Position numbers and translations under genes: made by a program. Below the pieces are notes generated by a model, which worked only from the letters and a program-made list of their open reading frames with translations, was not told the origin of the DNA and ran no database searches. Of a stretch of 64,000 nucleotides of DNA, positions 15,408 through 33,961 are shown one piece after another (position 1 is the stretch's first letter; each line of letters starts with the position of its first letter). The stretch is from Antitrichia curtipendula (taxonomy: Eukaryota > Streptophyta > Bryopsida > Hypnales > Leucodontaceae), in contig OX579634.1 in the NCBI GenBank assembly GCA_951230915.1, positions 55,875,570-55,939,569 of the forward strand, read 5' to 3'.

Positions 15408-15423
15408 CATGGTTGTCATACTG
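15408..15423 (+). repeat. Left terminal inverted repeat of the hAT element
   Basis: CATGGTTGTCATACTG pairs with the complement of the right end, CAGGGTTGTCATAACG, with 13 of 16 matches including ten consecutive bases. Confidence 0.75.
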
Positions 15424-15426
15424 TAC

Positions 15427-15464
15427 GGACGTCCGGTTCACCCGTCCGTCCGTCCGGGACGTCC
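15427..15464. promoter_or_regulatory. Subterminal GGACGTCC palindromes, left end
   Basis: The self-complementary box GGACGTCC occurs at 15427-15434 and 15457-15464, separated by CCGTCCGTCC repeats. The same box with the same neighbours lies at 33913-33920 near the right end. Subterminal repeats are the usual binding sites of hAT transposases, so these are candidate transposase-binding sites (inference). Confidence 0.5.
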
Positions 15465-15529
15465 GTTAGAGGTCTCACCCGCCCGATACAGTCAACACAA
15501 AGTTGACTTTATGAAACCAAAAAAGTAGG

Positions 15530-15868
15530 CCACGGGGACGCCACGGGGACGCCACGTGGATTTAGGAACATGCAGGGCGGGGACTCCATTGAGTGGGGGC
15601 AGGGACTCCATCCAGTAGGGGCAGGGACTCCATCCAGTGGGGGCGGGGACTCCAGTGAGTGGGGGCGGGGACTCCAGTGAGTGGGGGGCGGGGACTCCAG
15701 TGAGAGGGGGCGGGGACTCCAGAGAGTGGGGCGGGGACTCCAAAGAGTGGGGCGGGGATTCTTACGTGGGGGCGGGGACTCCAGCGACTGGGGCGGGAAC
15801 GTGAGGAGGACGGGGCGTGGACGGCACGTGTCGGGGCGGGTACTTGAGGAGCGGGGGAACTATATAAA
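15530..15868 (+). promoter_or_regulatory. GC-box array and TATA promoter of the kinase gene
   Basis: About eleven GGGGCGGGGACTCC-like boxes are spaced 20-23 bp apart (anchors at 15581, 15603, 15625, 15647, 15669, 15692, 15714, 15735, 15756, 15776, 15796), close to two helical turns. A TATATAAA box follows at 15861-15868, then a CCCCGCC-containing leader. A likely 83-nt leader intron runs from GTGAGTG at 15943 to TTGCAG at 16025. The same layout precedes the other two units of the element. Confidence 0.7.
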
Positions 15869-16052
15869 GCGAGTCCCCGCCCTCATTTCTTTGCCAAGTC
15901 CGCGCCCTACGCCTTACACACTAGTTCGTCCCCACGGCCTATGTGAGTGAGTTTGGTGGGTGGTGGGCTTGGCCCTCATATGTGACCCGGTTTTTTTCAA
16001 ATTTTCGGGGCTTTTGTGCTTGCAGAGGCCCATTGAACAATTTCTTTTCGTT

Positions 16053-17633
16053 ATGGCGGGGGAAGGGAGTGCATCGGCGGAGAAACATCCTATGTTTGTA
16101 GATTTAGATGATGTCGGTGAGATGGTAATTCCATTCACGGACAACTTGATGGCCTCAGGTTCATCGAACCCTTCTTCATCAAGCCAAAAGAAACGCAAGA
16201 AAGCACTCAATCCCCATATGCCTCCACATGAATTCATAGTTGAAGGGAGAGCAATAGTTGTGGTGTTCTACACTCGTCGCGGTACGACTATGTTGACCAG
16301 GGAGTATGTGGCGCTCAACGAAGAAGGGTACCACAAACTCACGAGGGACCTGCGAACGGAGCTGGAGTCAAAGTTTGAAGCATCTGAGAAATTCAACAAT
16401 TTCTCCGATTATTGGTTGCACCAAGACTGGCTGGATAAACAGGTGGTTGCCTTCACAACCAATATAGTGTCAAATTGGTGTTACCACATGGGGAAGAAAG
16501 AAGATGGTAGCGATTGGGACACACAAAATAAAGAGGTGGTTGCAAAGTTGAAAATCATTCAAAACTTTGCTCAACAATTTTCTTCATCACGTAAGAAAAA
16601 GCAAGCACCTTGGAAAGCGACAATTGAAGACACCATAACAGCTCATTGTGTTAGTGGAACATTCAAGTGGCTTGAAAGTTCAGTAAAAGTCATCCCCATG
16701 CCGGAACAGAGTGCCGTTGGTTCATATGGGACCGTGAGGAAGGTGATGCTTACAAAACTTCAGAGCATTCTTAGTTGGATATTTTTTGCTGGGAAGAGCT
16801 TGAAAACCACGAATGAAAAGGAGAAGCGCCAAGGAATCATCAATGAGGCGGGCGGGTGTCCAGTGAGACATCCTGGCATCATTCGAATTGCGTACCTCCA
16901 CCCTAAAACAATGGAAGGCTACACGTTATGGTGGAATGGAGGCTCTCTAATTTCTTTCTTATCCAAATACAATTCGAAAGTAAGCGAAACATTGGATGTC
17001 GATGAGATTAAGAATGAACAAGGTACAGGGTTGACAAAAGAGGAGCTTACATGGGTTGCAACTTACCGACGGAACCGAGTGAACTTGGCACTCTCTTTGC
17101 TTGTCATTGTGGGGAAATGCCACGATGCGCAGTACATGCACAACGACATCACTCCATCCAATATTTTGCTCCATTTTGATGATTATAAAGAGCACACGGT
17201 GTATATAGGGATATGTGATTGGGGACTTTCTAGCCGAGCTGTAGAGAAGGAGCCGTCAAGATATGGCTTTCCTAACAAGGACATCCTAGTGAAGGAGAAG
17301 AGAATGCGAAGGTTTGCAGCCCCTGAATTGTTTTATATATACGGAGAGCAAGGTTCGGCAAATTCAATTGAGGCCATGCAAAAAATGCATTTGTATTCCA
17401 TGGCAACTGATGCATATGCGGCCGGATGGATAGCAGCACAAATTTGGAAGGAAGAGTGGGACTCCAAATACTTTACAACAAAGAATCCAGAGCAGTATCA
17501 GAACCTCAGGATCAAATTGGAAAGCCTCATAAAAGAGGATGTGAGTGAAAGGGCGTCAGTGCTAGATGTTCTCGACGCATTGAAGAAGGCCCCCCACTGT
17601 TGGACTATGCCAGAATGTTGTTATCGTATATAG
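16053..17633 (+). CDS. Protein-kinase-like protein, transposon cargo
   Basis: A single open frame of 526 codons; I chose the ATG at 16053 just after the predicted leader intron. The first 200 residues are unrecognised, with a Ser-rich and basic stretch near residues 35-50. The kinase-like domain runs from about 220 to the end. It has a shortened glycine loop (VGSYGTVRKV, 222-231), a candidate ATP lysine K248 in AGK, a catalytic loop HNDITPSN with D365 and N370 (HRD changed to HND), a metal-binding DWG with D389 (DFG changed to DWG), an APE motif at 423-425 and a DAYAAG helix. The three key catalytic residues are therefore present, so activity is possible though the motifs are divergent. Substrate and role are unknown. 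The gene is the first cargo unit of the hAT element, behind its own GC-array promoter. No frameshift or stop was seen. Confidence 0.75.
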   Translation: MAGEGSASAEKHPMFVDLDDVGEMVIPFTDNLMASGSSNPSSSSQKKRKKALNPHMPPHEFIVEGRAIVVVFYTRRGTTMLTREYVALNEEGYHKLTRDLRTELESKFEASEKFNNFSDYWLHQDWLDKQVVAFTTNIVSNWCYHMGKKEDGSDWDTQNKEVVAKLKIIQNFAQQFSSSRKKKQAPWKATIEDTITAHCVSGTFKWLESSVKVIPMPEQSAVGSYGTVRKVMLTKLQSILSWIFFAGKSLKTTNEKEKRQGIINEAGGCPVRHPGIIRIAYLHPKTMEGYTLWWNGGSLISFLSKYNSKVSETLDVDEIKNEQGTGLTKEELTWVATYRRNRVNLALSLLVIVGKCHDAQYMHNDITPSNILLHFDDYKEHTVYIGICDWGLSSRAVEKEPSRYGFPNKDILVKEKRMRRFAAPELFYIYGEQGSANSIEAMQKMHLYSMATDAYAAGWIAAQIWKEEWDSKYFTTKNPEQYQNLRIKLESLIKEDVSERASVLDVLDALKKAPHCWTMPECCYRI

Positions 17634-17639
17634 TATTTA

Positions 17640-19680
17640 GTTTTTTTACTTTTTGTAGCTTAGCATATAGTTCAGGCATAGAAGGTAAATCATCCTCATA
17701 GAGGACCATGTGTATGTACTTCGCAATTGCCGAACACCTCAAATATATATGAAGTCGGATGCATTGTACATTCAAAATCTCATGTGAATATATTAACCTG
17801 CTATGTCATTGTTCTTTCTCATTGCATGTTTATGAGTTCTATGAATTGATGATAAAACTTTTATAAAAATAGTGAATGCAATAGTTTGGTATAAAAATAC
17901 ATACACTTTATCTTTTCACTATGTCTATGTTTTACAATTTTAGAAGTTAATGAAGCCCCCCCAAAATAAAATAAATGATCCAACAAAAAAAAGAATAACA
18001 TTGAAGTACATTGGGATAATTTTAATCATGAACACAAAAAAAGGTTCAAAAAAATTAAAAATTATAAAACGAAAAAAAGAAAAGGAAAGGGAATGATGGA
18101 ACCCAAAAATAAGATTAATGGCTTTGAGTTGAGGTGGAAGAACTTTAGTAAATTAGAAAAAAATAAAGTAGGGAAAGGAAAGATTGAACGAATAAAGCTA
18201 AACTATGAATTCGAATAAAATAGTCTTCTCACTTAATGAACGAAAACAAAATAGAAAATGGAATGTTTGAACAAAAAAAAAAAAAATAACTATGAGTTGG
18301 GATGGGAGAGTTTTAGGAATGAAGCGAACAAAAAAAGATAATCATCCAAGCCAAAAGGAATGGCATAGAGTTGGCATGGGAACTCCTTTGTTCATTAATG
18401 AAAAAAAAAATAGGAAAGGAAATCATGGAACAAATCCGAAATGGCTTGGGGTTGGTATGGAATAATTTTGTGAGAGACATAGACCCACAAAAAATAGTGT
18501 GTCAAAGTGATTTCAACTAACACCCCAAAAAATTTACCATTTAGTTCGGATAGATTTGCGTTACCACAAAAAGTAAATGGAATTTCCTTTAGATGAAAGA
18601 GCTTGGCTAATAAAAGCAAAAAATGAAATTAATAGGAATGATCATTCAAAAATAAATGGCCTCGAGTTGGGATGGAACAATTTTGCTAATAGCGGGAAAA
18701 AAAAATCATTCCACCTTACACAAGTGGCATTGAATTCAAATAATTTTTTTTGGTAATGATGCCCACAAAATAGGGAAGAGAATGAAAACACCAGAAAAAT
18801 TATGGCAATCACTTGAAATGGAAGTGTGCTTTAAAAATCAATGTCTAAAAGGGGAGATGGAGTGACCAAAGCTTTAGAAAAGCATACCAATTTATTTTAG
18901 GATTTTTAGCGGGGGGAATTATTTTTACGGACTTAAATAATCTAACATTAAAAGAAATATGAATGGTGGAGTGCTTTCTTATATAGAAATGATTTGGGTG
19001 TCACTCTAAAATAATGTAACATCCAAAAAATCTATGGAATAGTGGAGTGATTTGGACATGGAAGTGGTTTGGAGGTTACAAACTTATAATGAAGCAATTT
19101 AACACCCAAAAAAAATATGGAATGGTGGATTGATTAAGATATGGAAATTATTGGGGTGTTAGAGTGATACGATCTAACATTAAATCTCAATATGGACTGC
19201 TAGAGTCACTTAAAACATGGAGTAATGTAGAAGGCTCAGAAATCACTCATCTAAGGGCTGGTTCGCATTTCTACAGTATTTCTTTACATGGGAATATTTT
19301 TAAGCTCATCCTTGAAACCAAGAAAAATTGATGAGGAATGTAGCCCAATCGGTTTCATATTTTTTTAAACATTATTGAATTAATTATAAATTTTCAAAGG
19401 AGATGTGTCCTAGGTCCCTATTTATATTCTTACGTCCTTCATATTGCAATTCTAAAGAAAAATGGGGATAGCAAAGACAATGATTGGCTCTTGTGATAAA
19501 GAATGTTTTTTTCCTTCTTTCCTTTTTGTCTTTTGAGGTCAATTTGAAAACTGCATCATATCCATTCTACAACCACTTATAGGGGCAGTTCTTAATGCCA
19601 AAACTCTTTTCGAGCCTTCTACCTTAGGAAATGGAAATATGTCTAAGCACATTAACTTCGTATATTTAAATCATGTCCGC
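17640..19680. other. Spacer of degenerate 75-100-bp repeats
   Basis: No gene. From about 17950 to 18880 the sequence is a chain of diverged units with words such as GGGAATGAT, GAGTTGGGATGG and TTTTAGGAATGAAGC, separated by poly-A. From 18880 to 19220 there is a second family (AATGGTGGAGTGATTTGG). Related units fill the other spacers of the element. Confidence 0.6.
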
Positions 19681-19691
19681 GCCCACTCTCT

Positions 19692-19966
19692 GGAGTCCCC
19701 GCCCCACTCTCTGGAGTCCCCGCCCCACTCTCTGGAGTCCCCGCCCCACTCTCTGGAGTCCCCGCCCCACTCTCTGGAGTCCCCGCCCCACTCTCTGGAG
19801 TCCCCGTCCCACTCTCTGGAGTCCCCGCCCCCACTGTCTGGAGTCCCCGCCCCACTGTCTGGAGTCCCCGCCCCCTCTTGGTGGAGTCCCCGCCCCCACT
19901 CGAAGGAGTCCCCGCCCCAACTCGATGGAGTACCCACCCTGGCGTCCCCCAGCTGCAACTATATAA
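19692..19966 (+). promoter_or_regulatory. GC-box array and TATA promoter of the coiled-coil/RING unit
   Basis: Twelve CTCTGGAGTCCCCGCCCCA-like boxes. The first seven are spaced exactly 21 bp apart (19692, 19713, 19734, 19755, 19776, 19797, 19818), the rest 21-22 bp (to 19927). A TATATAA box lies at 19960-19966, followed by CCGTCCCCGCCTCATTTGTC. The box is the reverse complement of the one in front of the kinase gene. The leader TTCATTGAGCTGGTTGTGAG resembles the transposase leader. Confidence 0.7.
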
Positions 19967-20095
19967 GGCCGTCCCCGCCTCATTTGTCCCCGCCCTGCAT
20001 ACTCTCAGCCTTCCATCTCTTCATTGAGCTGGTTGTGAGCGTTGTGCGGGGTCTACTTGATTGCCACGTGGAGAATTTCGCTTTTTTCTACAAAA

Positions 20096-21367
20096 ATGGA
20101 TACACTACCAAGAATGACCAAGGAAGAACGAGATAGGACCCGACCACGAGCCGGAAACAAACATCGCAAGCGACTACATGTTCTACGAAACCCTGACAAG
20201 CTTGCATTCAGGGGGTGGGAGGGCGTGCTTGAACCATGGACATATGATGACTGCGCCAATTACATTGAGTGGTGCCACATAGACAAGTTGTTCCCGGAAG
20301 AGCGACACAACTGTCACAGACGCTTCCACAAGGCAAATTTAAAATACTGCCTGGACGAAGAGTTTACAAACCGATGCATTGAGGTGTACCAAGTGTTGTA
20401 TGCTCTCTCAAACGTCATACGCAATGAAGTGCAACTTTTCCTTGCACGAGGGGTCTATGCGGAGCTGAAGTTGAACAAGAGAGTGGATTGGTCAACTTTG
20501 AAGCAAATGGGAGAAAATGTCAATATTCCTACTCCAGCAAATGGATTCATTCCAAGGGGGGTAAAAAGATACCCGGAAGGTGGTCTAGGGAAAACAAATA
20601 CGCAGGTTCAAGCACCACGAAGATATGACACTGAAGACTCATCTACGGACGACGACTCAGATGGATCTCGTGTACCAGTTGTAGTCAGCCATAGAACTCA
20701 ACTACTACGAGCTAAAAAGAGGAGGGCTTCGCGTCAAACTGCTGAGGTTTTACACGAAAATGTTGTGGAGGAACAGGTGCCACCTATTGACGAACCAGTG
20801 GTAGGAATTGTGGATGTTACAGCTGCTACAAACCGAATCCAAGGTTTGTTGATTGAAGTGAATGAGAAAAATGAGGAATTGCATTCTTTGTATAATGATG
20901 TTAACAAAATGAGAGAAGACATGCAAGAGAAGGACAACATTATCAATCAACAACAACGTGAGATGGAGGTACTTCGGCACGCTCTTGAGGCAGCAACATT
21001 GGCCAATCGTGGTCAAGATCCACGAGGGGAAGCGCAAGGGCCTTCAAATAATTCTCAAATTCCATTGGAACCTACAGAAGTTGGTGCAACAATGGATACT
21101 CAGGATGATTCTTTGTCCTTTGGAGAATTACCCGCAAATGTAGGTGCAGCAGGGCCAGTGGACCAAAGCATCCAACTGACGGACGCGCTTGCAATGAATT
21201 TGACATTGAAAAATCAATTGCATGCATTGATGGAGCAGTATTACCAATGGAAGCTGGCATGTGTCTTCAGTGTTGACAGGACTAGGCAAATGGTGGAGGA
21301 ATTCAAAAAAATTGACCACAATTACGGCGCACACAATCAAGAGAGGGTTTTTGATTTGACATCGTAG
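20096..21367 (+). CDS. Coiled-coil protein, transposon cargo (ends at in-frame TAG)
   Basis: 423 codons from the ATG at 20096, with no earlier ATG in the leader frame. The N-terminal 40 residues are basic. Residues about 40-135 contain several Trp, Cys and His residues (WTYDDCANYIEWCH; CHRRFHK) but no zinc-binding pattern I can name. An acidic Ser/Asp stretch lies at 179-191, a basic KKRRASR patch at about 207-213 and a strong coiled coil at about 245-302. No family recognised. The ORF ends with TAG at 21365-21367. The next ORF begins only six bases later in the same reading frame, so the two may once have been one protein of about 760 residues with the RING domain in the middle. Alternatives are readthrough, or re-initiation at the second ATG. 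Confidence 0.65.
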   Translation: MDTLPRMTKEERDRTRPRAGNKHRKRLHVLRNPDKLAFRGWEGVLEPWTYDDCANYIEWCHIDKLFPEERHNCHRRFHKANLKYCLDEEFTNRCIEVYQVLYALSNVIRNEVQLFLARGVYAELKLNKRVDWSTLKQMGENVNIPTPANGFIPRGVKRYPEGGLGKTNTQVQAPRRYDTEDSSTDDDSDGSRVPVVVSHRTQLLRAKKRRASRQTAEVLHENVVEEQVPPIDEPVVGIVDVTAATNRIQGLLIEVNEKNEELHSLYNDVNKMREDMQEKDNIINQQQREMEVLRHALEAATLANRGQDPRGEAQGPSNNSQIPLEPTEVGATMDTQDDSLSFGELPANVGAAGPVDQSIQLTDALAMNLTLKNQLHALMEQYYQWKLACVFSVDRTRQMVEEFKKIDHNYGAHNQERVFDLTS

Positions 21368-21373
21368 GCCCTG

Positions 21374-22393
21374 ATGGATGATCATTTCAACATGGATGAA
21401 ATGGCAACCATTGACATTGCTGGTGGACAAACAACCATCGACTGGTCCAAACATGATTGGGATTTCAAGAATGAAGTTGGCTCTGCCGTGGACCATGAAG
21501 GCAATCCATTACTACTGTGGCCAAACCCTTCAACTTTCGTACACGATGGAACTACATGTCCCATTTGCCTTAATCCATTTGGCCCGGAAGGTGGAATGCA
21601 CTTAGGCACGTGTGAACATTTGTACCACCCATTCTGCCTAATTAGCTTGATGTTTGTCCGCCGACGTTGTTCACTATGCAAGGCTCCTTTCCATAAGCGC
21701 TTGTATGAGTTGTTTGGATTAGTTCCCTACATGCCACCGCATTGGGAATTCAATGCTGAAAATGCCCCTGATCATTCTCAGAAGTGGGGAACAGACTTGG
21801 TGTGGAGTTGGAAATTGAACATCCATTCGTCGGGCAAACAACAACTTTGTACCGAATGGGGTTGGGAAAAAGATCCGGCTCAAATTGTGGAGGTGTGCCA
21901 CCACTTGGTTCCATTGAAGGACAACTTTAGCCAAGGACGACGGAATTTCTTCTTCCAATGCTTCAATGGGCATTGGAATGAGGCACAAGAATACTTCCAA
22001 TTTGGACCTCATCCTCTTGGATGGTTGTGGGGCGTTGATGGAGTTCGCATTACTGACGACCAGGGGATGCGGAGGGGAGAAGACATTGACATGCCAGACC
22101 CTGCTGAACTTGCACAACTATCGGAGTCAGAGTGGCGAGAAACCTTTCGAAATGATGGGATGGACTTCTTGTTGGAACAACATAGCCCGGGAACTCTCCA
22201 ATGTCTTCAAAGCCTCAAGCAATCACAAATATTGAAGGCTCTTTTAGAGGAAGACGGACCAGCGAGGAGAACTCGATCCGCAGTTCGTAGACTTCGTTTG
22301 GGAACAGATGAAGACCTTCCAATTCGCGCCGGGACACATGACAATGAGGCTAGACCAAGTGGCAGTACAAGTAGTCCAATGAACATGGACTAA
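21374..22393 (+). CDS. RING-H2 finger protein, transposon cargo
   Basis: 339 codons from the ATG at 21374. A RING finger is clear at residues 62-102: C62-x2-C65, C80-x-H82-x2-H85-x2-C88, C99-x2-C102, the C3H2C3 order of RING-H2 E3 ubiquitin ligases. A Trp-rich region follows (about 125-235: VWSWKLN, WGWEKDP, GHWNEAQEYF, GWLWGVDG) that I cannot assign, then an acidic and Arg-rich tail. E3 activity is inferred from the ligand set only. The ORF lies directly downstream of, and in frame with, the coiled-coil ORF and has no promoter of its own. It is probably the C-terminal part of that protein, cut off by the TAG at 21365. If it is translated at all, that would need readthrough or internal initiation. 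Confidence 0.7.
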   Translation: MDDHFNMDEMATIDIAGGQTTIDWSKHDWDFKNEVGSAVDHEGNPLLLWPNPSTFVHDGTTCPICLNPFGPEGGMHLGTCEHLYHPFCLISLMFVRRRCSLCKAPFHKRLYELFGLVPYMPPHWEFNAENAPDHSQKWGTDLVWSWKLNIHSSGKQQLCTEWGWEKDPAQIVEVCHHLVPLKDNFSQGRRNFFFQCFNGHWNEAQEYFQFGPHPLGWLWGVDGVRITDDQGMRRGEDIDMPDPAELAQLSESEWRETFRNDGMDFLLEQHSPGTLQCLQSLKQSQILKALLEEDGPARRTRSAVRRLRLGTDEDLPIRAGTHDNEARPSGSTSSPMNMD

Positions 22394-22399
22394 GTATAG

Positions 22400-24600
22400 T
22401 TTTGAGTATAGTTTTGAGTGTTTTAGCTAGTGAGCTTAGGTTTTCATAGAAGACTTATTTTCCTAGCACTATAATATTATATAGGCTTATATACTTTCCT
22501 ACTTTGTATTACACTATGCATATGAAATATATTTGATTTTGTTTTGAATGATTTTGCCCAAAGTGACTTCATTTATTTTTTGCACGTACTCATTTGAAAT
22601 TTGAATGGACTTGTGGACTTCATACATATTAAAATTATTTATACCATGAAATGAAATGTCATTGAATTGGAGTACAATTCATTCCCAATTTCCACTCAAT
22701 GAATAGAAGTAGGGAAGGTTGGACGGACCACGAAGGCACGAAGTGGCCCGAACTTGAAATTAGGGGAAAAAACGCTTTTCAAATGTCATTAATGCCTTGA
22801 TGGAAATATATATATGCAAAGGAATGATGGAACTCCCCCCCAAAAGGGATTGAAATAGGTAAAAATTCACTTGCAAAATAGGCAAAGGAATGATAGAGAA
22901 AAGCAAAAAATAGGGAAGTAATTACCTACTTAAAAATGAATGGCATTTAGTTGGGATAGAATAACGTGACAAATGAAGCCCAAAAAAATTAGAATGGGTT
23001 TAGAGAATACAAAATTTAAATGGCCTTTGATTGAGAATTTTAGATGGAGCAATTTTGCTAATGAAGCACAAAAAAAGTAGGAAGGTAAACTGAATGCCAA
23101 AAATTGGCATTGAGTTGGAGAAAAATTAGGAAGAGAATAATAATGCCATTTAGTTTTTATATAACTTGGGATGTAACAATTTTGCTAATCAATCTAAAAA
23201 AAATTGGAAAAGAAATGAATCCAAAAAATTAGGAAAGGGAAAGAATCCCCCCCAAAAAGGAAAGGGAATGAATCCCAAGAAACATTTGATAAGGGAATGA
23301 ATCCCAAAGAAATAGGAAAGGGAATGATATACAAAAAATAAAGGGCATTGGCCATTGGGATGGCATGGGATAATATTGCAAATGAAGTTCAAATAAAATT
23401 AGGAAGTAAATGATATACCCAAAAAAAAGGCATCTATTTGGGATACAATAATCTTGCAAATCACTAACCAAAAATAAGAAGGGCTTAGGTAATACAAAAA
23501 TTAAATTATTTAAATGGCCTTCGGGCTCATGATGGAATGGAGCCATTTTGGCATTTTGCTAATGAATTTTACAAAGATTAGGAAGGGAAAGAAATGTAAG
23601 TGCATTTTAAATGTTGCTAATAAAAACAAACAAATGTGAAAGAAATATGAAACAAATATTGTTTCACATTACCTCTTATGTCATATGAAAAATGGGAAGT
23701 GAATGGATAGACTTCAATTTCGTACCATAAAGAAAAAAATTTAGGGAATCCCTTAGGATGGAATAATTGTGCTAATAAATAAAACAAATAGGAAAGGAAA
23801 TAAGCAAACAAAAATGCTTACCGTTGGATTAAACAATTTTAGGAATTAATGAAGAAAAAAAATAGGAAAGGAAGTGAGTTGGATGAATAAATATTGGCAT
23901 GGAGTTCACATAAAAGAGTTCTATGAATTAATGAAGAAAAAAATGGTGTCTTTGAGTTGGGGACTTGAGGTGGGAGAACTTCAGGAAATAAGCGAAAATA
24001 AAATAGAGATGGAAATGATTCAACAAAAAAAGATGAATTGAAAATTGGGATGGAAGATTGTTAGGAACAAAATAGAAAAAGGAATGATTCAACTAAACCA
24101 AAAAAATTAAATATAATTTGGGATGGGAGAGTCTTACAAATGAAGCATCTACAGAAAAAGAAGACAAAATGATCCAACCCAAAAAGAATGCCATACAATT
24201 GACAAGTTGGGATGGGAGACCTGTGCTAATTCCTGGAAAAAAATAGGAAAGGGAATGATGCCCCCCCAAAAAGGACAGTGACTTAGAATGGAAGACTTTT
24301 AGGAATGAAGCCCGAAAAATTAGGAAAGGAAATGATGGAATTAAAAATTGCAGTTGCATATTGAAGGCCTAGAATTTTAAATAACTCCCCTACTATTTCT
24401 TTCATTTCAAATACAATGCAGTTTTATCCTTTTATCTAGTACACTACATTTCAAAAATATTGATTAAACATTTACTAAATATTTCCTCAAAGTGTCCTAA
24501 ACATTTCCTAAATCAAAGAATTTACATTGTTTTTTACAACCTAAATGATATGTTTGTTCAAAGTAGTTTGAAGTGTTAGAAGAAGTAAGGAAAAACATTT
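22400..24600. other. Spacer of degenerate 75-85-bp repeats
   Basis: No gene. From about 22690 to 24360 the sequence is a chain of diverged units with GGAAAGGGAATGAT, ATTGGGATGGGAGAG and TTAGGAATGAAGC words separated by A-runs, the same family as at 17950 and 26390. 24360-24600 is plain AT-rich DNA. Confidence 0.6.
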
Positions 24601-24604
24601 CTCA

Positions 24605-25026
24605 CCACAACAAAGGAGACATCCTCTTCCATGGATTTTCTTCCAAATCTTAGGCCATGGACCTCTTTATTCGGCATCTTGCTTTCATTGTCTTGTCAGA
24701 ATCCAAAATAAGTTGTTGAGGCTAAATTAATGCTTCCCACTCTCCAAGGAAAAGGGCGGTTCAAGGATGTCGCATTTAAAAGTCTTGCTTCCTGTGCTGG
24801 ACGAGTGAGTCCCCGCCCTGGAGTCCCCGCCCTGCCTTCGAGTCCCCGCCCTGGAGTCCCCGCCCTACCTTCAAGTCCCCGCCCTGCCTTCGAATCCCCG
24901 CCCTGGAGTCCCCGCCCTGACTTCGAGTCCCCGCCCTGCCTTCGAGTCCCCGCCCTAGAGTCCCCGCCCTGACTTCGAGTTCCCACCCTTATTTGAAGTC
25001 CCCACCATGGAGTCCCCGCCCTATTG
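24605..25026 (+). repeat. Duplicated module with GC-box array, copy 1
   Basis: A stretch of about 200 bp (CTCTTCCATGGA..., TATTCGGCATCTTGC...) is followed by about 14 GAGTCCCCGCCCTG boxes from 24807, spaced 14 or 19 bp. The same module recurs at 27355-27800. The array looks like the element's promoters but no TATA box or gene follows; a Tc1/mariner element interrupts it right at its end. Confidence 0.7.
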
Positions 25027-25028
25027 TA

Positions 25029-26263
25029 CAGTACCCTCCAAAAAGTCTTGCAACCCCATTATGAAGTCCTTCAAATTTTCCTTTTTAACTCCATTTTAAG
25101 AACATACTATGAAAAGTATCCTATTAAATCTATTGCTTCATGGAACCTTCACCAACATATGAAATTTCAATGTCTAAAAATAGAAACTCCATTTTTGGTG
25201 AATTATTTTATTTATTTTTCACGATATTACATAATAATTAATTAGAAAATGTGTATGATGATTTTTTAAGATCTAATTGCGTATATATTTAGGAAACATC
25301 ATTGTTCACATCTTTCATATTACAAAGATGCACACTATGTAGGTAAATTTTTTGTCTATTTGGCTTTAATGTATTTTGCAATTTCCTTTCATACATGTTC
25401 AAGGCAAAGGTCATGTATTCAAAAACATTTGAATAAATATTGTCAAATAGGATATCATTAGGAAGCTATGGTATTGTAGAAGCCTACTATATCATGAATT
25501 TTACAGTATGTCTCGCTAACTAGCAACGACTTTGCAACAAAGTGTTACACCTACTACCATCAAGTACTACCACCTTGAGCTGCTATCTTAGCTTTGATTT
25601 GGTTTGGCATCGTAGAAATTGACTTTTGAATACTTTCTTGAGGTATATCCTTGCATGCCATATTCACTAATGTCCACATTTAGTCATTGTTGTAGGATCT
25701 ACATCTTTTTTGTACTCGATCTTTGACTTGCTTCTATAAATTCTCTATAGGATTAAGGTCAAAAGAATTTGGTGGCCACTCAATGAATTTTACATTATGT
25801 CATGGTGCAAAGTTGACCAACATTGCTTAGAACTTCACAAGTTTGCTTATAGAACTTCTAGCAACATCATATATACAATATTTTAGACAAACATTAATTT
25901 TTTCTCACAAAACTTCTAGGCTATGTCTACAAGCAACAATCACTAGAAGCATGCATGCACTAATGTTGATCCTCTCAATCGCAAAACCGGTTGAAATCCA
26001 CTACCTATGATCTTCTACAATGAAATTTTTAAATTAGCATTGTCCCTTTAAATTTAGCTTAGTGTTTTCAAAATCAACCACCTTTCACAAAGAAAGATTT
26101 TTCTAAGAAGTGGAATGAGTTACAACAAGGTGCATGACTCACCTAGTTTGGGGCAAAAAATCTCAATCAAATATCTAAATTTACCTACCATGAGTTTGAT
26201 TTGTAATCAAACTACTCGGATGAGAACTAGACATGGGGTTGCAAGAGTTCTTGGAGGGTACTG
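25029..26263 (-). mobile_element. Nested Tc1/mariner element
   Basis: Terminal inverted repeats of about 31 bp begin CAGTACCCTCCAA and continue CTTGCAACCCCAT on both ends with two mismatches. The element is flanked by TA on each side (25027-25028 and 26264-26265), the Tc1/mariner target duplication. Length is 1235 bp. It carries a broken transposase on the minus strand and sits inside the hAT element at the end of a GC-box array. Confidence 0.85.
25575..25800 (-). pseudogene. Tc1/mariner transposase remnant
   Basis: On the minus strand one frame reads WPPNSFDLNPIENL, the signature around the third catalytic residue of Tc1-type transposases (DD34E: the E of PIEN), followed by KQVKDRVQKR. Stops interrupt the frame right after ENL and again about 25 codons later. 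The distance back to the NFAP motif (normally DNAP, the second aspartate) is only about 15 residues instead of the usual spacing, so there is an internal deletion as well. Not functional. Confidence 0.8.
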
Positions 26264-26389
26264 TACATTCAATTAAAAAAGAGTTCCTTGTGCCAAGTAT
26301 TCCAAAAAATGAATCCCTTTACATGAAGAACAAACTATAACTTGTAACTTCTCATTGTTCTAAGACAAGAATGAAATAAAAAATCAATA

Positions 26390-27350
26390 GGAATAGGAAT
26401 AATGGATTAAAAAACAAATGGCATTGAGTTCGGAACTTCGGATGGAAGAATTTGTTTATGGATGAAGCAAAAGTGATAAGAAAGGGAATGATTCAACAAA
26501 TCAAGAATGGCAATGATTTAGGATGGAAGAGTTTTTGGAACGAAGCAAAGAACAAATATAGGAAAGGGAATGACTAAATAAAAAAAGATTGGCATAGACT
26601 TGGAATAAAAGAGTTTAGGAATTAAAGAAGGAAAAAATAGGAACGTATATAAAAATAGAGAATCGAATGATTCTACATATAACTATTGGCATGCAATTGG
26701 AATTAAAGAGTTTTAGGAATTAATGAAGCCAAACAAAATAGGAAAGGGAATGGTGGAACAAAAATAAAATGGCATTGAATTGAAAACAAAGTGCTTAAGG
26801 AGTTCATGTAGCCAAAAAAACTAAGGGGCATTGAGGTGGAATGGAAGAATTTTAGAAATGAAGCAGAAACAAAAACGAAAAAAAAGAGAATGATGGAACA
26901 AATAAATCATGGCTTTGAATTGAGGTGGTAGAACTTCAAGAAATAAGCAAAAATGAAGTAGGAAAGGGCATGATTCAACAAACAAAGATCGGCATGGTGT
27001 TGGAAGAATACTACAAAAGAGACTTGCTAAGTTTTGAAGCAAAACAAATTGGAAAAGGAGATCATTCAACAAAACAACCCAAAAAATATGAATTGGGATG
27101 GGAGAGTTTTAGGAATGATCCAAATAAATAGGGAAAGGAATGATGGAACCAAAAATGAACATTTGGCTTTGATTTGAGATGGAAGAGTTTTAGGAACAAA
27201 ATAGAAAAAAGAATGATTCAACCAAAAGAAAAAAAATTAGAATAAGTTGGAATGGGAGAGTTCTAGGAATGAAGCCCAAAAAAAAGGAGAGAGAAAGATC
27301 CGACCTCGAATGAATGGCACAAACTTGGGATAGGAGAGTTTTCCTAATAC
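26390..27350. repeat. Spacer of degenerate 75-85-bp repeats
   Basis: Diverged units carrying GAGTTTTAGGAAT, GAAGC, AGGAAAGGGAATGATT and A-runs recur roughly every 75-85 bp. Same family as 17950-18880 and 22690-24360. No gene. 26266-26390 holds nothing recognisable. Confidence 0.6.
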
Positions 27351-27354
27351 CTTT

Positions 27355-27800
27355 CATCACAACGAAGGGGACATGCTCTTCCATGGAGTTTCTTCCAAAT
27401 CTTAGGCCGTGGAGCTCTTTATTCGGCATCTTGCTTTCATTGTCTTGTCAGAATTTGTTGAGGCTAAAATTAATGCTTCCCCCGCTCTAAGGAAAAGGCG
27501 GTTGAAGGATGTCAAGCACAAGCGCATTTCAAAGTCATACTTCCTGGGCTGGACGAGTACGTCCCCGCCCTGGATTCCCCGCCCTGCCTTCGAGTCCCCG
27601 CCCTGCCTTCGAGTCCCCGCCCTGCCTTCGAGTCCCCGCCCTGCCTTCGAGTCCCCGCCCTGCCTTCGAGTCCCCGCCCTGGAGTCCCCGCCCTGCCTTC
27701 GAGTCCTTGCCCTGGAGTCCGCGCCCTGCCTTCGAGTCCCCGCCCTAGAGTCCCCGCCCTGCCTTCAAGTCCGCGCCCTGACTTCGAGTTTGCGCCCTGA
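27355..27800 (+). repeat. Duplicated module with GC-box array, copy 2
   Basis: Matches 24605-25026: the same stretch (CTCTTCCATGGAGTTTC, TATTCGGCATCTTGC, GCTGGACGAGT) followed by a GAGTCCCCGCCCTG(CCTTC) array from about 27560. The copies differ by small indels and substitutions, so the duplication is not recent. Reading frames across the array give repeated SPRPAFE peptides and are not genes. Confidence 0.7.
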
Positions 27801-28745
27801 CTTTGAGTCCATTCCATGGAGTCTGAGATTGAGCTGCGCTCTCTCAAGTTCCTCCATTTGTGTGAATTGTCCGCCCCGGAGTCCGTGCCCTGCGTCCGCG
27901 CCCTAGCACAATCCATTCAGCGAAAACATTGGGGAGTGAAAGCCATTTTTTTTGCCCACGAATTTGGGGGTGTGACGACATTTAATGTTCCCCTTTTTCC
28001 ATGAAAAGGAGGGACACAATCTTCCCAGACCATTAAGGATGGCGAAGGTCAACGTACTTTTCGATGCATCCCCGTGAACACACCTGCATTTCTGTACTGG
28101 AGTCGCGCCTTGGAGTCCGCGCGTTCGAGTCCCCGCCCTGGAGTCCCCGCCCTGCTTTCGAGTCCCCGCCCTGGAGTCCCCGCCCTGCCTTTGAGTCCCC
28201 GCCCTAGAGTCCCCGCCCTGACTTAGAGTCCGCGCCCTGACTTTGAGTCCATTCCATGGAGTCTGAGATTGAGCTACGCTCTCTCAAATTCCTCCATTTG
28301 TGTGAATTGTCCGCCCCGGAGTCCGCGCCCTGTGTCCGCGCCCTAGCACAATCCATTGAGCAAAAACATTGGGGAGTGAAAGCCATTTTTTTTTATTTTT
28401 TGACACAAATGAAACGGGATTTCATTGCAAAAATAGAGTACAAGGCATCAGCCACAAGTGGCCTGATGAAAGGAGATAGACACAACGAAGGACAGACAAG
28501 ACAAAGGACGCAAAGCCGGCAAAACGGGCAAGACGAGGAGACCAACCAGGTGAAAGCCATTTTCTTTGCCCACAAATTTGGGGGCGTGACGACATTTAAT
28601 GTTCCCCTTTTTCCATGAAAAGGAGGGACACAATCTTCCCAGACCATTAAGGATGGCGAAGGTCAACGTACTTTTCGATGCATCCCCGTGAGCACACCTG
28701 CATTTCTGTACTGGAGTCGCGCCCTAGAGTCCGCGCGTTCGAGTC
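27796..28745 (+). repeat. Segment duplicated in tandem (27796-28120 and 28230-28745)
   Basis: Two copies of a segment running from a CCATTCCATGGAGTCTGAG start, through AACATTGGGGAGTGAAAGCC and CCATGAAAAGGAGGGACAC, to TTTCTGTACTGGAGTCGCGC. The first copy is uninterrupted; the second contains a 160-bp insert at 28390-28549. Between and after them lie GAGTCCCCGCCCTG boxes. Short open frames are shared by both copies but have no recognisable product. Confidence 0.8.
28390..28549 (-). mobile_element. 5'-truncated LINE 3' end with 14-bp target duplication
   Basis: Comparison with the uninterrupted copy at about 27940 shows an insert flanked by GTGAAAGCCATTTT on both sides (28376-28389 and 28550-28563). 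On the minus strand the insert ends in a poly-A-like tail preceded by ATGAAATCCCGTTTCATTT, typical of plant LINE 3' ends. No coding part remains. Confidence 0.7.
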
Positions 28746-28974
28746 CCCGCCCTGGAGTCCCCGCCCTGTCTTCGAGTCCTTGCCCTGGAGTCCCCGCCCT
28801 GCCTTTGAGTCCCCGCCCTGGAGTCCGCGCCCTGCCTTCAAGTCTCCGCCCTGCCTTCGAGTCCCCGCCCTAGAGTCCCCGCCCTGACTTAGAGTCCCCG
28901 CCTTGACTTCAAGTCCGCGCCCTATACTTTGGTGACGAAGACGTCCGCGCCCCCTAAACCGCTAAGTATATAAA
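28710..28974 (+). promoter_or_regulatory. GC-box array and TATA promoter of the transposase
   Basis: About a dozen GAGTCCCCGCCCTG / GAGTCCGCGCCCTG boxes (28715-28950) are followed by TATATAAA at 28967-28974. A CATTCCCCACATTTGTC segment then parallels the start regions of the other two units. A leader TTCATTTTGAGCTCCTTGTGAG follows; GTGAGTC at 29053 may be an intron donor. Confidence 0.7.
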
Positions 28975-29234
28975 GGAAAGGAAGACCCAGCATTCCCCAC
29001 ATTTGTCACCTGGCCTCTATTTCTTGGACTTCAATTCATTTTGAGCTCCTTGTGAGTCTACTTGGGTGACAGATGGCCCTAGTTTGCTGCTGAGGTGATG
29101 TCAAAATCAGTTCAAGCAGTGGAGTAGCGCTAACTGCTGTTACTGATACTGTGTTTGGTATATCTTGGATCCTTTTAACTTCAATATAAAGGAGGAGGAA
29201 GACGGAAGAAAATATCCTTGGATCGTTGAACGCA

Positions 29235-32200
29235 ATGGCAAGTCAAAGGAAGCAGACCAAGGAATGGGAGCCGTGGCTTCAGTTTACGGAGAATGGGGTT
29301 AAAGTGACTTGTGTTTTCTGTGCTGGGACCTTCAGTTACAAACGTGAGCGTGCTTTTGCACACTTTGGATATGGCTCCAAATCGGAGAGGTCAATTTGTC
29401 GAAGTATGCCTCGTCCAGTGCGACATAGATTTGCCAATTGTGCAGGATTTGTCCCGCTACGAATCGATGTCGGGGACATGTATGAAGGAGAACCAATTCA
29501 AAGTGTGCCATCTAGAGCAACTCCTCTTGCAAGTTCAAGTGAAGCCACTGAAAATGAGGTGACGGGTGGGATCAATGGTGGAAGAGCGGAAGAAGGGGCA
29601 AACGTTTCAGAAGGAATTGATATTCTACAAACGTCAAATAGTCTTGCTGGATCCAATTCTACGAGATCTGGATCATTACGTCAACAACGCATGGCGGACG
29701 CATTCAACATTGCAAAGAGGAAGGAGTTGGATGAGAAGTGGGCAAGTTTTTTCTATGAAGCGAATGTGCCATTTAATGTGGCAAGGCATCCAGCCTTCAT
29801 TGAAGCGGTGAGGGCAACCTCAGTGGCGAAGTTTGAATACAGTCCACCTTCTTACCATCAATTTAGGACTAATTTGATTGAACCGAGGAGGTTGCAAATT
29901 GAGAAGCAGATTCAAGAGAAGGTTGGATTTGCTGTCAAGCACTACGGGGTGTCGATATGCACCGATGGTTGGGATGATGTCAATCGGAGACCCCACATGA
30001 ATGTGATGATGTCATGCCCCACAGGTGATGTATTTTTGGGGTCAATTGATACTACCTCGCAAAAGAAAACCATGCGCTACATATCGGACCAAATGAACGT
30101 GTACATTGAGAAGGTGGGTCCCAAATATGTAACACAAGTGTGCACAGATAATGCAGCAAACATGCTTGGCGCATTGAAGGACATCACTAACACATACCCG
30201 CATATTTTTGCGCAAGGCTGCATGGCACATGCACTAGATCTCATGTTGGAAGACTGGGCCAAAGTCCAAGAATTTTCCGATTTAATTGCCAGGGCAAAAA
30301 GATTGTGCCAATACATTCGAAACCATCATGCGAGCATGTCGGTTTTCCGCGAGTTGAGTCCGAATCTGCAACTCGTAGTGCCTAGCGAAACCCGCTTCGC
30401 TTGTAATTTCCTCATGTTGCAGCGATTGGTGAAACTCAGAGGAGTCTTGGAGCGGTTGAATAACCACCCACGTGTTCTAAATTTCTTTGATACCCTGAGG
30501 AATGAACAAAATGGACCGCAAGCAGCTACCGCTTCACGTAATGTCAAAAAAACCATTGAAGATGTGGCTTTCTGGCAACGGTGTGTGAATTACGTGTACA
30601 TGACTGAAGACGTATTGAAGGCTTTGCGTGTGTTTGATGGACGAGAACCAGCCATGGGTCGGGCGTGGCTCTTAATGCACAATTTGCGAGGGCATGTGTT
30701 TTCTTTAAGAGAACCACCTTTCAGCTTACGTGATGACATAGCAATCATTTTGGAAGAATCTTTCAGTGCAAGATGGCACATGGTTTTTGAAGATACACAC
30801 TACACAGCGGCCCTTTTGAATCCATACCTCTTGGATAACGTGGCGCTCAGGGAAGATCAAACTGCCCTACGTGCATTGTATAGAGTCATCCGCAACATGA
30901 TGGGGAACCTGGGTGTCAATTTTGATGATGTGATGGCGGAATTAACAGAATTCGAGGAGGGTATTGGACCCTACAGTCCAGCTGAGACACCCAACATCCG
31001 TGCGACACAAATGCTTCCCCACCAATGGTGGCACATGGTTGGAGATTGGGCTCTTTCGAAAATTGCCGTGTGTGTTTTATTCCTCACGTGTTCCGCCAGC
31101 TCCTGTGAAAGGAATTGGAGTATGTATTCCTTTGTTCACAATAAGATCCGAAATCGATTGGCCCCTGAAAAGGCAGAGTCCCTAGTATATATTTATACCA
31201 ATAGCCGTGTACTTCACCAACGACCAGGAGCCGATCCAGTTCGTTGGTATGATGCGAATATGTACTCAGAGAATTCTGATCCAGATGCCCTTGGACCGAT
31301 CTCGGTGAATGAACGCAATCGGGAATTTGACGCACTGCAATCAGAGGAAGAAGAAGAGGTTGATGGGGAAGCCAACCGAGGAGCTCAAGAGTATCCGGCA
31401 AACCCAGATCTTTGGAGGCAAGGAGCCGATCACCTCGAAGAAGCGCGGAACTACTATGGAGATGCTGATGATGGAGAGGAGGAACTCCTTCGTGGTCGTA
31501 GGGGACCACCACCACCAAATCCTCGTCGTAGTCTTTCACCTCCACTTCCTCAAAATGAAGGGGTTGTAGAAGTCCCAACTTTGTCGTCTTCTTTGGAGAC
31601 CGACAATCCAAATGACGATAACGTTGATGATGGTATTTCCCACAACAACAACGACGATGATGACAACCTCCCTCCAGGAAATGGCGGCGGAAATGGCGGT
31701 GGAAATGGAAATGGTGGTGGACATGAAAATGGCGAGAGAAACAGGGGGAGGAATGCGAATCCAAATCATGGAGGATCTTCTCACAATCGAGATGGCAATA
31801 CACGCCCTACGGGAGTAGAACCAGCAACTCGTAACATTAGAGCTCTAGAAAGACAGCATGATAGAAACGTTAGAAATGCAAGAGTGCCACGCCCTTTTGC
31901 AAGAAATCAACCGGCTGGTAACATAAGAAGGCCTTTTGATCTAGAGCATGTGGACCATGATGATGTTTTTGCTTTTGTAGAACCACCCGAAGACATTGCC
32001 CCTGTACCGGCTCCAGTTGCGGGCCATCCTGCTATTTCTGAACATGGTACACAAGTGCCACATTCCCTAGATCCATCTTCAGAAACAATTTCCAATGCCA
32101 TCCAAAGACCTTCTCAAAAACGATTAGGCTCAGTGGGAAATGTTGATTTGACTCTGCAAAGAGTTTCATGTGGTAGACCACCTGTGGCCCCTCGGCCCTC

Positions 32201-32297
32201 CGTTCATCATGAAGTAGGTCAATATCAACAAGCCCGTGGACGGACGAGAGGCCATGGTAGAGCTGCAGGCCGTGGAGGGAGTACAGGCCGAGGATGA
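29235..32297 (+). CDS. hAT-family transposase (BED, DUF659, hATC)
   Basis: 1020 codons from the ATG at 29235. A BED-like finger (CVFC, later H of AHFGYG) lies near residues 26-45. The DUF659/RNase-H-like core follows: first catalytic aspartate in CTDGWDD (about D244), second in CTDNAANM (about D305), and the hAT CxxH motif in GCMAH (about 329-332). The C-terminal dimerisation domain (about 597-660) contains WWHMVGDW and the catalytic glutamate in SCERNWS (about E625). All three acidic residues are present, so the core could be active. A long tail follows: acidic, Asn/Gly repeats, then RG-rich. The frame is closed by TGA at 32295, after which it stays open to 32747; the stop may be a mutation. 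It is the third unit of the 18.5-kb element and has its own GC-array promoter. Confidence 0.9.
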   Translation: MASQRKQTKEWEPWLQFTENGVKVTCVFCAGTFSYKRERAFAHFGYGSKSERSICRSMPRPVRHRFANCAGFVPLRIDVGDMYEGEPIQSVPSRATPLASSSEATENEVTGGINGGRAEEGANVSEGIDILQTSNSLAGSNSTRSGSLRQQRMADAFNIAKRKELDEKWASFFYEANVPFNVARHPAFIEAVRATSVAKFEYSPPSYHQFRTNLIEPRRLQIEKQIQEKVGFAVKHYGVSICTDGWDDVNRRPHMNVMMSCPTGDVFLGSIDTTSQKKTMRYISDQMNVYIEKVGPKYVTQVCTDNAANMLGALKDITNTYPHIFAQGCMAHALDLMLEDWAKVQEFSDLIARAKRLCQYIRNHHASMSVFRELSPNLQLVVPSETRFACNFLMLQRLVKLRGVLERLNNHPRVLNFFDTLRNEQNGPQAATASRNVKKTIEDVAFWQRCVNYVYMTEDVLKALRVFDGREPAMGRAWLLMHNLRGHVFSLREPPFSLRDDIAIILEESFSARWHMVFEDTHYTAALLNPYLLDNVALREDQTALRALYRVIRNMMGNLGVNFDDVMAELTEFEEGIGPYSPAETPNIRATQMLPHQWWHMVGDWALSKIAVCVLFLTCSASSCERNWSMYSFVHNKIRNRLAPEKAESLVYIYTNSRVLHQRPGADPVRWYDANMYSENSDPDALGPISVNERNREFDALQSEEEEEVDGEANRGAQEYPANPDLWRQGADHLEEARNYYGDADDGEEELLRGRRGPPPPNPRRSLSPPLPQNEGVVEVPTLSSSLETDNPNDDNVDDGISHNNNDDDDNLPPGNGGGNGGGNGNGGGHENGERNRGRNANPNHGGSSHNRDGNTRPTGVEPATRNIRALERQHDRNVRNARVPRPFARNQPAGNIRRPFDLEHVDHDDVFAFVEPPEDIAPVPAPVAGHPAISEHGTQVPHSLDPSSETISNAIQRPSQKRLGSVGNVDLTLQRVSCGRPPVAPRPSVHHEVGQYQQARGRTRGHGRAAGRGGSTGRG

Positions 32298-32747
32298 ACA
32301 GAAGATCTGCATATTGGAGAAGCATCATCGCCAAGGCATGCTATTCGTTCACCCCTCGGAATTGGAGCAAGAGATCCAAATAGGGTGATAGAACCGTTCC
32401 TAAGTACATACGTACCAAGACCTAGCCGGTCAACTCCGGCATTTGTTATTCAAACAATTCCAGGTAGGCCTACTATAAATTCTGATGCAGAAGACCCCAA
32501 TGCACAACGACACAAGAGGTTGAAGCGCAAACGTACTCATGGCCAAACAACTATAGAGCTTCGAAATGAAAACTCGGAAGTTGAGGAACATTGGACCACC
32601 GACAGTGGTGAAGCAGAAGATGAATATGACAGCAATGAAGATGCCAATGACGAGGCACCAGAGGATGATGATGTTGTTGTTCGAGATGCTAATGCAGCGA
32701 ATCCAAGTGCCCAAGAAGTTCGTAGGTCGAGTCGTTTGAATAATTGA
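32298..32747 (+). pseudogene. In-frame continuation of the transposase after TGA
   Basis: The transposase frame has no further stop between the TGA at 32295 and TGA at 32745, giving about 149 more codons. The composition continues the tail (Arg/Pro-rich, then acidic, ending VRRSSRLNN). The simplest reading is that the original protein ended near 32745 and TGA arose from CGA. Readthrough is possible but unsupported. Confidence 0.6.
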
Positions 32748-33159
32748 GGTTATTGAATTGCATCGATGGTAGATCTCGGATCTTTAAGAGTTGAAGACAA
32801 TTGTAGCAATTGGAAGAAATATAGACGAGAAGCCAAAAAAATGTTTTGGATAACCTATGAGAAACAGAGAAAGTGAGCGTATTTTGGAAGTATAGATTCA
32901 TTGTATTGATATTGTACTTTGCAATGTATGAATTTTATAAACTATTTTGGTAATCACAAACATTGCAGCCTACCTGTATTTTTTTTGTGTATTTTGTATT
33001 TGATGGGCCTCCTGGAAACCTTGGTGGGGAAATCATGTAAAATACATTCCAGTTACTGGTTCTTTTTAATGCAGTGGGGTCTCCTATTTGTTCCGAATTT
33101 TTTTATACATATATATATATATATTGTAGAACACATAAATTTAATCCACCATTGCTCGT

Positions 33160-33800
33160 CCGCGCCCTCCCACTCACGTTCAGGTCCGCGCCGTACCTGA
33201 AGGAGTCCGCGCCCTAACACGCTGAAGTCCGCGCCCTAACGCGCTGAAGTCCGCGCCCTGCCTGAAGGAGTCCGTGCCCTACCTGTCACAGTGAAGTCCC
33301 CGCCCTGCTTGAAGGAGTCCGCGCCCTGACGCGCTGAAGTCCGCGCCCTGACTGAAGGGGTCCGCGCCCTGACGCGCTGAAGTCCGCGCCCTGACTGAAG
33401 GGGTCCGCGCCCTAACGCGCTGAAGTCCGCGCCCTGCCTGAAGGAGTCCGTGCCCTACCTGTCACAGTGAAGTCCCCGCCCTGCTTGAAAGAGTCCGCGC
33501 CTTGACGCGCTGAAGTCCGCGCCCTGACTGAAGGAGTCCGCGCCCTAACTGTCACACAGAAGTCCCCGCCCTGCTTCGAGGAGTCCGCGCCCTGCTTGAA
33601 GGAGTCCGCGCCCTGACGCTCACACTGAAGTCCCCGCCCTCATTCGATGAGTCCGCGCCCTGAAGCGCTGAAGTCCGCGCCCTGAATGAAGGAGTCCGCG
33701 CCCTGACGCTCACACTGATGTCCCCGCCTTGCTTGAAGGAGTCCGCGCCCTCACGCGCCGAAGTCCGCGCCCTGACTGAAGAAGTCCCCGCCCCTGGATC
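33160..33800 (-). repeat. Right subterminal GC-box array
   Basis: About 28 boxes of the form GAAGTCCGCGCCCTGA or GGAGTCCGCGCCCT, spaced about 20-25 bp and alternating with GACGCGCTGAA or CTGAAGGA linkers. On the minus strand the box reads GGGCGCGGACT, so relative to the element ends it mirrors the left array at 15530-15855. No TATA box or gene follows on either strand. Confidence 0.8.
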
Positions 33801-33937
33801 CAACTGTCCAAGCTGACGTGTCATTGAAAAAAATTCCACAACTTTGAGAAATTGAGGCCGTCCAGTTGGTCCGGACCGTCCGTCCGTCCGGTCCGGTTTG
33901 CCCGTCCGTCCGGGACGTCCGATGACCCTAACTCGCC

Positions 33938-33953
33938 CGTTATGACAACCCTG
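33938..33953 (-). repeat. Right terminal inverted repeat of the hAT element
   Basis: Ends ...TATGACAACCCTG; read inward on the minus strand it is CAGGGTTGTCATAACG, the canonical hAT CAGGG terminus. The target duplication CTTTCAAA follows at 33954-33961. Confidence 0.75.
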
Positions 33954-33961
33954 CTTTCAAA

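Follow-up and report, generated by a model that had tools for sequence, protein, structure and literature searches.

The question raised by this locus is whether the stretch from 15408 to 33953 in a 64,000-bp piece of the Antitrichia curtipendula genome (contig OX579634.1) is a single transposon of the hAT superfamily that carries other genes besides its transposase. The piece, called here the window, is the whole stretch of DNA that was analysed and corresponds to C2:55875570-55939569 of a 400.2-Mb, 303-contig genome assembly. Elements of the superfamily (Ac, Tol2, Hermes) have in common an 8-bp target-site duplication, short inverted ends of the form CA(T/G)GG and a transposase with DUF659 and hAT dimerisation domains, and they are usually described as a few kilobases long and encoding transposase only. 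The analyses revealed a single mobile unit at 15408-33953, a hAT-type transposon whose 18.5 kb make it unusually large and in which a protein kinase gene and a gene for a coiled-coil/RING protein accompany the transposase gene. Past movement and multiplication of the unit as a whole are shown by ends and a gene order that recur with different 8-bp duplications, and by one empty site. The best explanation overall, to which a probability of about 60% is assigned, is a three-gene hAT unit with an accessory system that most likely acts against silencing.

An earlier note on this DNA, written from the letters of the window alone, had reported a ten-base inverted repeat with a CAGGG right end (CATGGTTGTCATA and, read inward, CAGGGTTGTCATA) and a flanking duplication matching at seven of eight bases (CTTCCAAA and CTTTCAAA), and all of these are present. 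The terminal inverted repeats are short and start with CA, as in other hAT elements. Reading the left end, CATGG, as a degenerate CAGGG was rejected, because CATGG is the normal left end of the family (19 of 19 elements). If nothing but the window is considered, an end pair of this kind is nevertheless within chance expectation: a control over the 64 kb gave 6249 ten-base inverted pairs separated by more than 1 kb, of which 17 entries had flanks matching at 7/8 bases or better (15 were printed, the pair of the element included and two pairs duplicated). With 17 comparable entries, the ends by themselves were rejected as proof of a transposon. The same control would favour the view that the genes are chance neighbours, or that two adjacent elements were taken as one; this view is refuted by separate copies in which ends, gene order and duplications recur, and by the empty site, and its probability is negligible. 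Adjacent unrelated genes were likewise rejected, as the gene order recurs across copies and genome lists.

It is this recurrence of copies across the genome that identifies one mobile unit in spite of its weak window-only ends. The genome was scanned with the left and right 101 bases of the element, and the scored matches showed 98-100% identity for left ends (best 40 of 163 candidates) and 99-100% identity for right ends (best 40 of 271). Of the first left-end loci fetched besides the window, all seven showed homology starting within 7 bases of 15408, three of them exactly there. Ten further copies were fetched in full: nine long ones (14.8-21.0 kb), which together with the window copy make up the set of ten long copies whose sequence was read throughout, and one 795-base deletion derivative that keeps both ends. 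Eight more copies, for which only the ends were fetched, measure 13.9-18.9 kb from end to end. The order kinase, coiled-coil/RING gene and transposase, all on one strand, was found in 10/10 long copies. Counting the window, 17 of 19 end pairs are flanked by 8-bp target-site duplications (14 perfect and three at 7/8, the window among these), while none of the 110 mismatched pairings of left and right flanks from the first 11 elements reached 7/8. The earlier note had proposed a search of the source genome for many copies with the same ends, differing 8-bp duplications and the same gene order, and this is what the genome contains.

The proposed search for empty sites was successful in part. The copy at 21.2 Mb of C7 lies in a tandem repeat, and the neighbouring unit of that repeat represents the target without an insertion: once joined, the two flanks agree with this unit at 387/400 positions spanning the junction, where the 8-bp site CCCGAATG is present once. 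This empty site is paralogous and not, as had been envisaged, orthologous. No clear empty site was seen among the fetched loci for the other ten elements, and two short spanning matches from the same search (110 bases at 75% and 85 bases at 85%) were not used. From the duplications and the empty site we infer cut-and-paste movement by 8-bp staggered cuts, in which the transposase would cut and paste the unit via its terminal repeats.

Genome scans with the genes covered 45 scored transposase loci among 1906 candidates and 81 scored kinase loci among 1475 candidates, the query for the latter being the metagenome relative P0030. A kinase from among the listed full-length ones lies upstream on the same strand at 28/45 scored transposase loci, at a distance of 9.5-27.9 kb, and a listed kinase or end was found near 37/45. 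One listed kinase near a transposase is misoriented, and that transposase also has a correctly placed kinase. Seen from the kinases, 39/81 scored loci adjoin a listed end in the correct orientation (22 left, 26 right, nine both). A listed kinase accompanies 26 of the 40 listed right ends, compared with a mean of 0.28 and a maximum of 4 in 200 random placements. For the coiled-coil/RING gene, the evidence for pairing comes from the ten long copies, from a single copy of a second family and from a gene pair on C9, the latter two described below. Transposase copies with ends elsewhere, or kinase and RING genes lying consistently outside the ends, were not seen among the listed loci. The recurrent ends, order and duplications, together with a shared promoter architecture, bear out the earlier suggestion that the kinase and RING genes are resident cargo and not random neighbours, and it is practically certain that they are resident, co-mobilised genes.

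The kinase that had been predicted in the element is real: its product matches PF00069 with 37.8 bits, above the cut-off of 31.7 (E 1.9e-9). In the AlphaFold2 model (mean pLDDT 82), a helical N-terminal region of about 140 residues is followed by a two-lobed kinase domain, and the best PDB matches of the model are kinase domains. K248, N370, D389 and G391 are invariant across 22 aligned kinases and D365 is found in at least 90% of them; K248, D365...N370 (HxD...N) and D389/G391 (DxG) correspond to the catalytic motifs of kinases. The relatives comprise 30 proteins among the listed candidates, with 29-89% identity, and are almost all metagenomic. None was confirmed in viral contigs, and a search of prokaryote contigs gave four loci with short 35-44% matches that were not used.

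Four proteins had been counted in the element by the earlier note, but three genes are present, since its "coiled-coil" and "RING" proteins are encoded by one frame of 765 codons. The in-frame stop between them is private to the window copy and absent from the nine other long copies, and the metagenome relatives P0001, P0002 and P0009 continue across its position. Two separate genes were rejected on these grounds, as relatives and the nine other copies read through, and so was programmed stop read-through, because both in-frame stops of the window's element are private among the ten copies. The canonical RING-H2 spacing, C-x2-C ... C-x-H-x2-H-x2-C ... C-x2-C, was found in the window translation and in P0001, P0002 and P0009. 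Relatives of the RING protein number 17, with 47-90% identity, and are almost all metagenomic; the RING part had no match in plasmids.

The transposase contains PF04937 (DUF659; 126.8 bits, cut-off 34.7, E 7.5e-37) and the hAT dimerisation domain PF05699 (Dimer_Tnp_hAT; 22.8 bits, cut-off 21.4, E 7.7e-5). An intact transposase is not supported for the window copy, whose frame is interrupted after the conserved domains by a stop that is private to it and absent from the nine other long copies; relatives align as far as residue 1170. Plausible acidic residues, candidates for the D-D-E triad, were spotted by eye. The nearest relatives in named eukaryotes are from Chara braunii, with 24-34% identity. 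Two relatives of the kinase and transposase, P0019 and P0099, are deposited as 'Bacilli bacterium' and look like eukaryotic bin contamination.

All three genes also share a noncoding feature. The ten-base motif GTCC[C/G]CGCCC occurs 85 times in the window's element and is absent from the 45,454 bp of the window outside it. Across 11 elements it was counted 655 times in 180,468 bp (a length 22 bp too high, owing to one copy) and only once in 44,532 bp of their flanks, the sole flanking motif sitting between a diverged kinase and coiled-coil/RING pair. The motif is therefore a tandem repeat of noncoding parts that is rare outside the element, as in VANC-type systems, and its arrays vary in length among copies. 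Each of the three genes is preceded by an array and then a TATATAA box, in accordance with the common promoter architecture described previously, and arrays are also found near both ends. This placement near the ends, besides that before the genes, is a point for the view that the arrays are mainly transposase-binding or promoter sites and that the kinase and RING protein regulate the amount or activity of the transposase. The CGTCCGTCC repeats are also found at the ends; in the window their + strand occurrences are confined to the two ends, with one - strand occurrence at 32238. On this view the arrays would resemble the subterminal repeats of Ac-type elements. By itself, this view does not explain the need for two large extra genes, and we consider it rather unlikely as the principal account; it is compatible with an accessory system acting against silencing and does not exclude one.

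Comparison of the ten long copies showed a mean DNA identity of 98.5% for the kinase, 98.7% for the coiled-coil/RING gene and 98.3% for the transposase. The changes among them are mostly private to a single copy and mostly C-to-T or G-to-A, and the other long copies carry stops or frameshifts of their own. The C-to-T rate is higher at CG (2.7%) and CHG (2.3%) than at CHH (0.9%), which suggests that the copies are methylated. Taken together, these data look as if the whole 18-kb unit had multiplied in a single recent burst, after which the copies were methylated and decayed. A decayed Tc1/mariner-like element nested in the hAT is present in 8/9 other long copies, and its insertion is therefore older than the burst.

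A second family was recognized at eight loci, whose kinase is 57.6-58.7% identical to that of the window and which share 94.5-98.3% DNA identity among themselves over matched stretches. Its end, CAGGGTTGTCACA, resembles that of the first family and lies beside the kinase in 7/8 loci (the seven looked at), with six distinct flanks, two loci sharing one. In the one copy that was followed, the kinase and a full-length coiled-coil/RING gene (53.8% identity, two stops) are arranged head to head, and the motif arrays of the second family have the same core. Between families, dN and dS were 0.336 and 1.54 for the kinase, and for the coiled-coil/RING gene dN was 0.345 and dS was beyond the method. Diverged relatives were also observed at two other places. 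At C9:19139893-19144560 (L031, L032), near the 795-base derivative, a diverged coiled-coil/RING gene and a kinase stand head to head, and pieces of this pair are 76% identical to the metagenome relative P0007 and 81-85% identical to P0025. At C7:11311054-11331053 (L019, L020), a copy is flanked on both sides by diverged coiled-coil/RING pieces on the opposite strand and may have inserted into a relative.

According to the preferred explanation, the mobile unit of this high-copy hAT comprises three genes, namely the kinase by the left end, the coiled-coil/RING gene and the transposase, and the kinase and RING protein would act in trans as an accessory system by which expression of the element is maintained. 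This system would counter methylation-based host silencing at the GTCC[C/G]CGCCC arrays, as VANC does for VANDAL elements, and its chemistry might be that a silencing factor, or the transposase, is phosphorylated and ubiquitinated. Co-travel, constraint between families and the shared arrays all point to accessory genes that serve the element, and it is quite probable that they are kept for its own benefit. That their role is anti-silencing in particular, a proposal made by analogy, is tentative and falls somewhat short of even odds. Less probable again is the fullest version, a giant hAT lineage, with families 54-58% identical, in which a kinase and coiled-coil/RING ubiquitin-ligase-like pair lifts silencing at its own arrays.

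Several observations weigh against this explanation. Two of the 19 end pairs have no target duplication, 8/45 scored transposase loci have no listed kinase or end nearby, and 42/81 scored kinase loci, all eight of the second family included, are not accompanied by a listed end. The second family is known from one end, its coiled-coil/RING gene from one copy, and its kinase has the opposite orientation to that of the first family. The RING profile scored 22.6 bits in the window, below the cut-offs of 27.3 and 27.9, and 25.8 bits in P0009, below 27.3; the structure model of the coiled-coil/RING protein was unusable (mean pLDDT 37). The VANC domains DUF1985 and DUF287 gave no Pfam match at E 1 in four window pieces. 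In every one of the ten long copies, at least one of the three genes is not open, and changes within the family look neutral, with omega values of 1.09-1.25 for singletons and of 2.45, 0.68 and 0.83 for shared changes (few sites). Constraint becomes visible only when the two families are compared, and at that distance dS is close to saturation or beyond it.

Such neutral decay within the family would be expected if the two genes had been trapped once between the ends and carried passively without function, but dN well below dS between families, invariant catalytic residues and the presence of the same pair in the second family make passive capture very improbable. Only slightly less remote is the view that the kinase and RING genes benefit the host, with the element as a Starship-like carrier. 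In its favour, two families have preserved both genes as coding sequences; against it, copies decay neutrally once inserted, both genes bear the element's own arrays, and the same gene pair recurs instead of varied cargo.

The element can be set beside several published systems. Compared with a typical hAT element, the long copies are large (13.9-21.0 kb) and hold two resident non-transposase genes and many motif arrays. The transposase of VANDAL elements belongs to a superfamily other than hAT. In Arabidopsis, the VANDAL accessory protein VANC binds noncoding tandem repeats, upon which methylation is lost (PMC5735166, PMC10398659). The present element resembles this system in having accessory genes and noncoding tandem-repeat motifs whose array length varies between copies (PMC5735166); it differs in having a kinase and a RING protein in place of VANC. 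ToxhAT of fungal wheat pathogens, the nearest hAT with extra genes met in the open-access literature, is likewise a hAT-like element, of 14 kb, with extra genes between inverted ends, but no target duplications were found there, (PMC6737239), whereas the present element is flanked by duplications, exists in many copies and shares its gene pair with a second family. Giant KDZ, EnSpm and Sola elements of Ectocarpus are also DNA elements of 15-30 kb with extra genes (PMC12477816; reviewed in PMC6431247), but these and the other reviewed giant transposons are not hAT; in the available portions of text, the words 'hAT' and 'kinase' are absent from the review (PMC6431247) and 'kinase' is absent from PMC12477816. 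Starships of fungi are comparable as large cargo-bearing elements and differ in their tyrosine recombinase classification, a size of up to about 700 kb and hundreds of accessory genes. No hAT with a resident kinase or RING gene was met among the listed open-access titles and abstract openings, a body of text that leaves subscription papers and preprints mostly outside.

A high-copy family of 14-21 kb with two further genes shows that a cut-and-paste hAT can keep a multi-gene programme, and the layout recurring across the genome suggests a contribution of these genes to the survival of the element in its host. Should silencing be counteracted by the kinase and RING protein, plant transposons would have a testable counter-defence of a second kind, next to that of VANC, and one that could perhaps serve as a sequence-specific tool in the study of chromatin.

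Table 1. Features of the element and its borders, with positions in the window.
Feature	Position	Strand	Remarks
Left target-site duplication CTTCCAAA	15400-15407		7/8 match to 33954-33961
Left terminal inverted repeat CATGGTTGTCATA	15408-15420	+	Identical sequence in 19/19 elements
Left subterminal region, CGTCCGTCC/GGACGTCC repeats	15421-15500	+	
GTCC[C/G]CGCCC array before kinase	15575-15797	-	TATATAA from 15861
Protein kinase gene, 526 aa	16053-17633	+	Open frame in window copy
Motif array before coiled-coil/RING gene	19677-19939	+	TATATAA from 19960
Coiled-coil/RING gene, one 765-codon frame	20096-22393	+	In-frame stop 21365-21367
Internal motif array	24807-25023	+	
Decayed Tc1/mariner-like element nested in hAT	25025-26267		35-bp inverted arms, reverse-strand transposase remnant; type by eye
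Two further internal motif arrays	27561-28343	+	Partly duplicated
Motif array before transposase	28711-28952	+	TATATAA from 28967
hAT transposase, 1170-codon frame	29235-32747	+	In-frame stop 32295-32297 (codon 1021)
Right subterminal motif array	33158-33793	+	24 motifs
Right subterminal region, CGTCCGTCC/GGACGTCC repeats	33854-33940	-	
Right terminal inverted repeat CAGGGTTGTCATA (inward reading)	33941-33953	-	
Right target-site duplication CTTTCAAA	33954-33961		

Further observations concern the remaining parts of the element and its surroundings. The A-rich spacers at about 18.0-18.4, 23.2-24.4 and 26.4-27.35 kb are diverged copies of one another, with no match outside the element in the self-comparison of the window, and an Rfam scan of the window gave no match at the gathering score. 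Exons of UTP20 (U3 snoRNA-associated protein 20) flank the element at 40397-45793 on the - strand. AGGGTTT telomere-like repeats are present in the window; like the C-to-T decay pattern and the Chara relatives of the transposase, they are consistent with a streptophyte. A tandem array with a 62/125-bp unit (96% matches at period 125) lies at 9323-10010. Near UTP20, positions 52012-53330 and 53589-54907 form a 1319-bp direct duplicate with 100% identity, which represents either a recent duplication or an assembly artefact.

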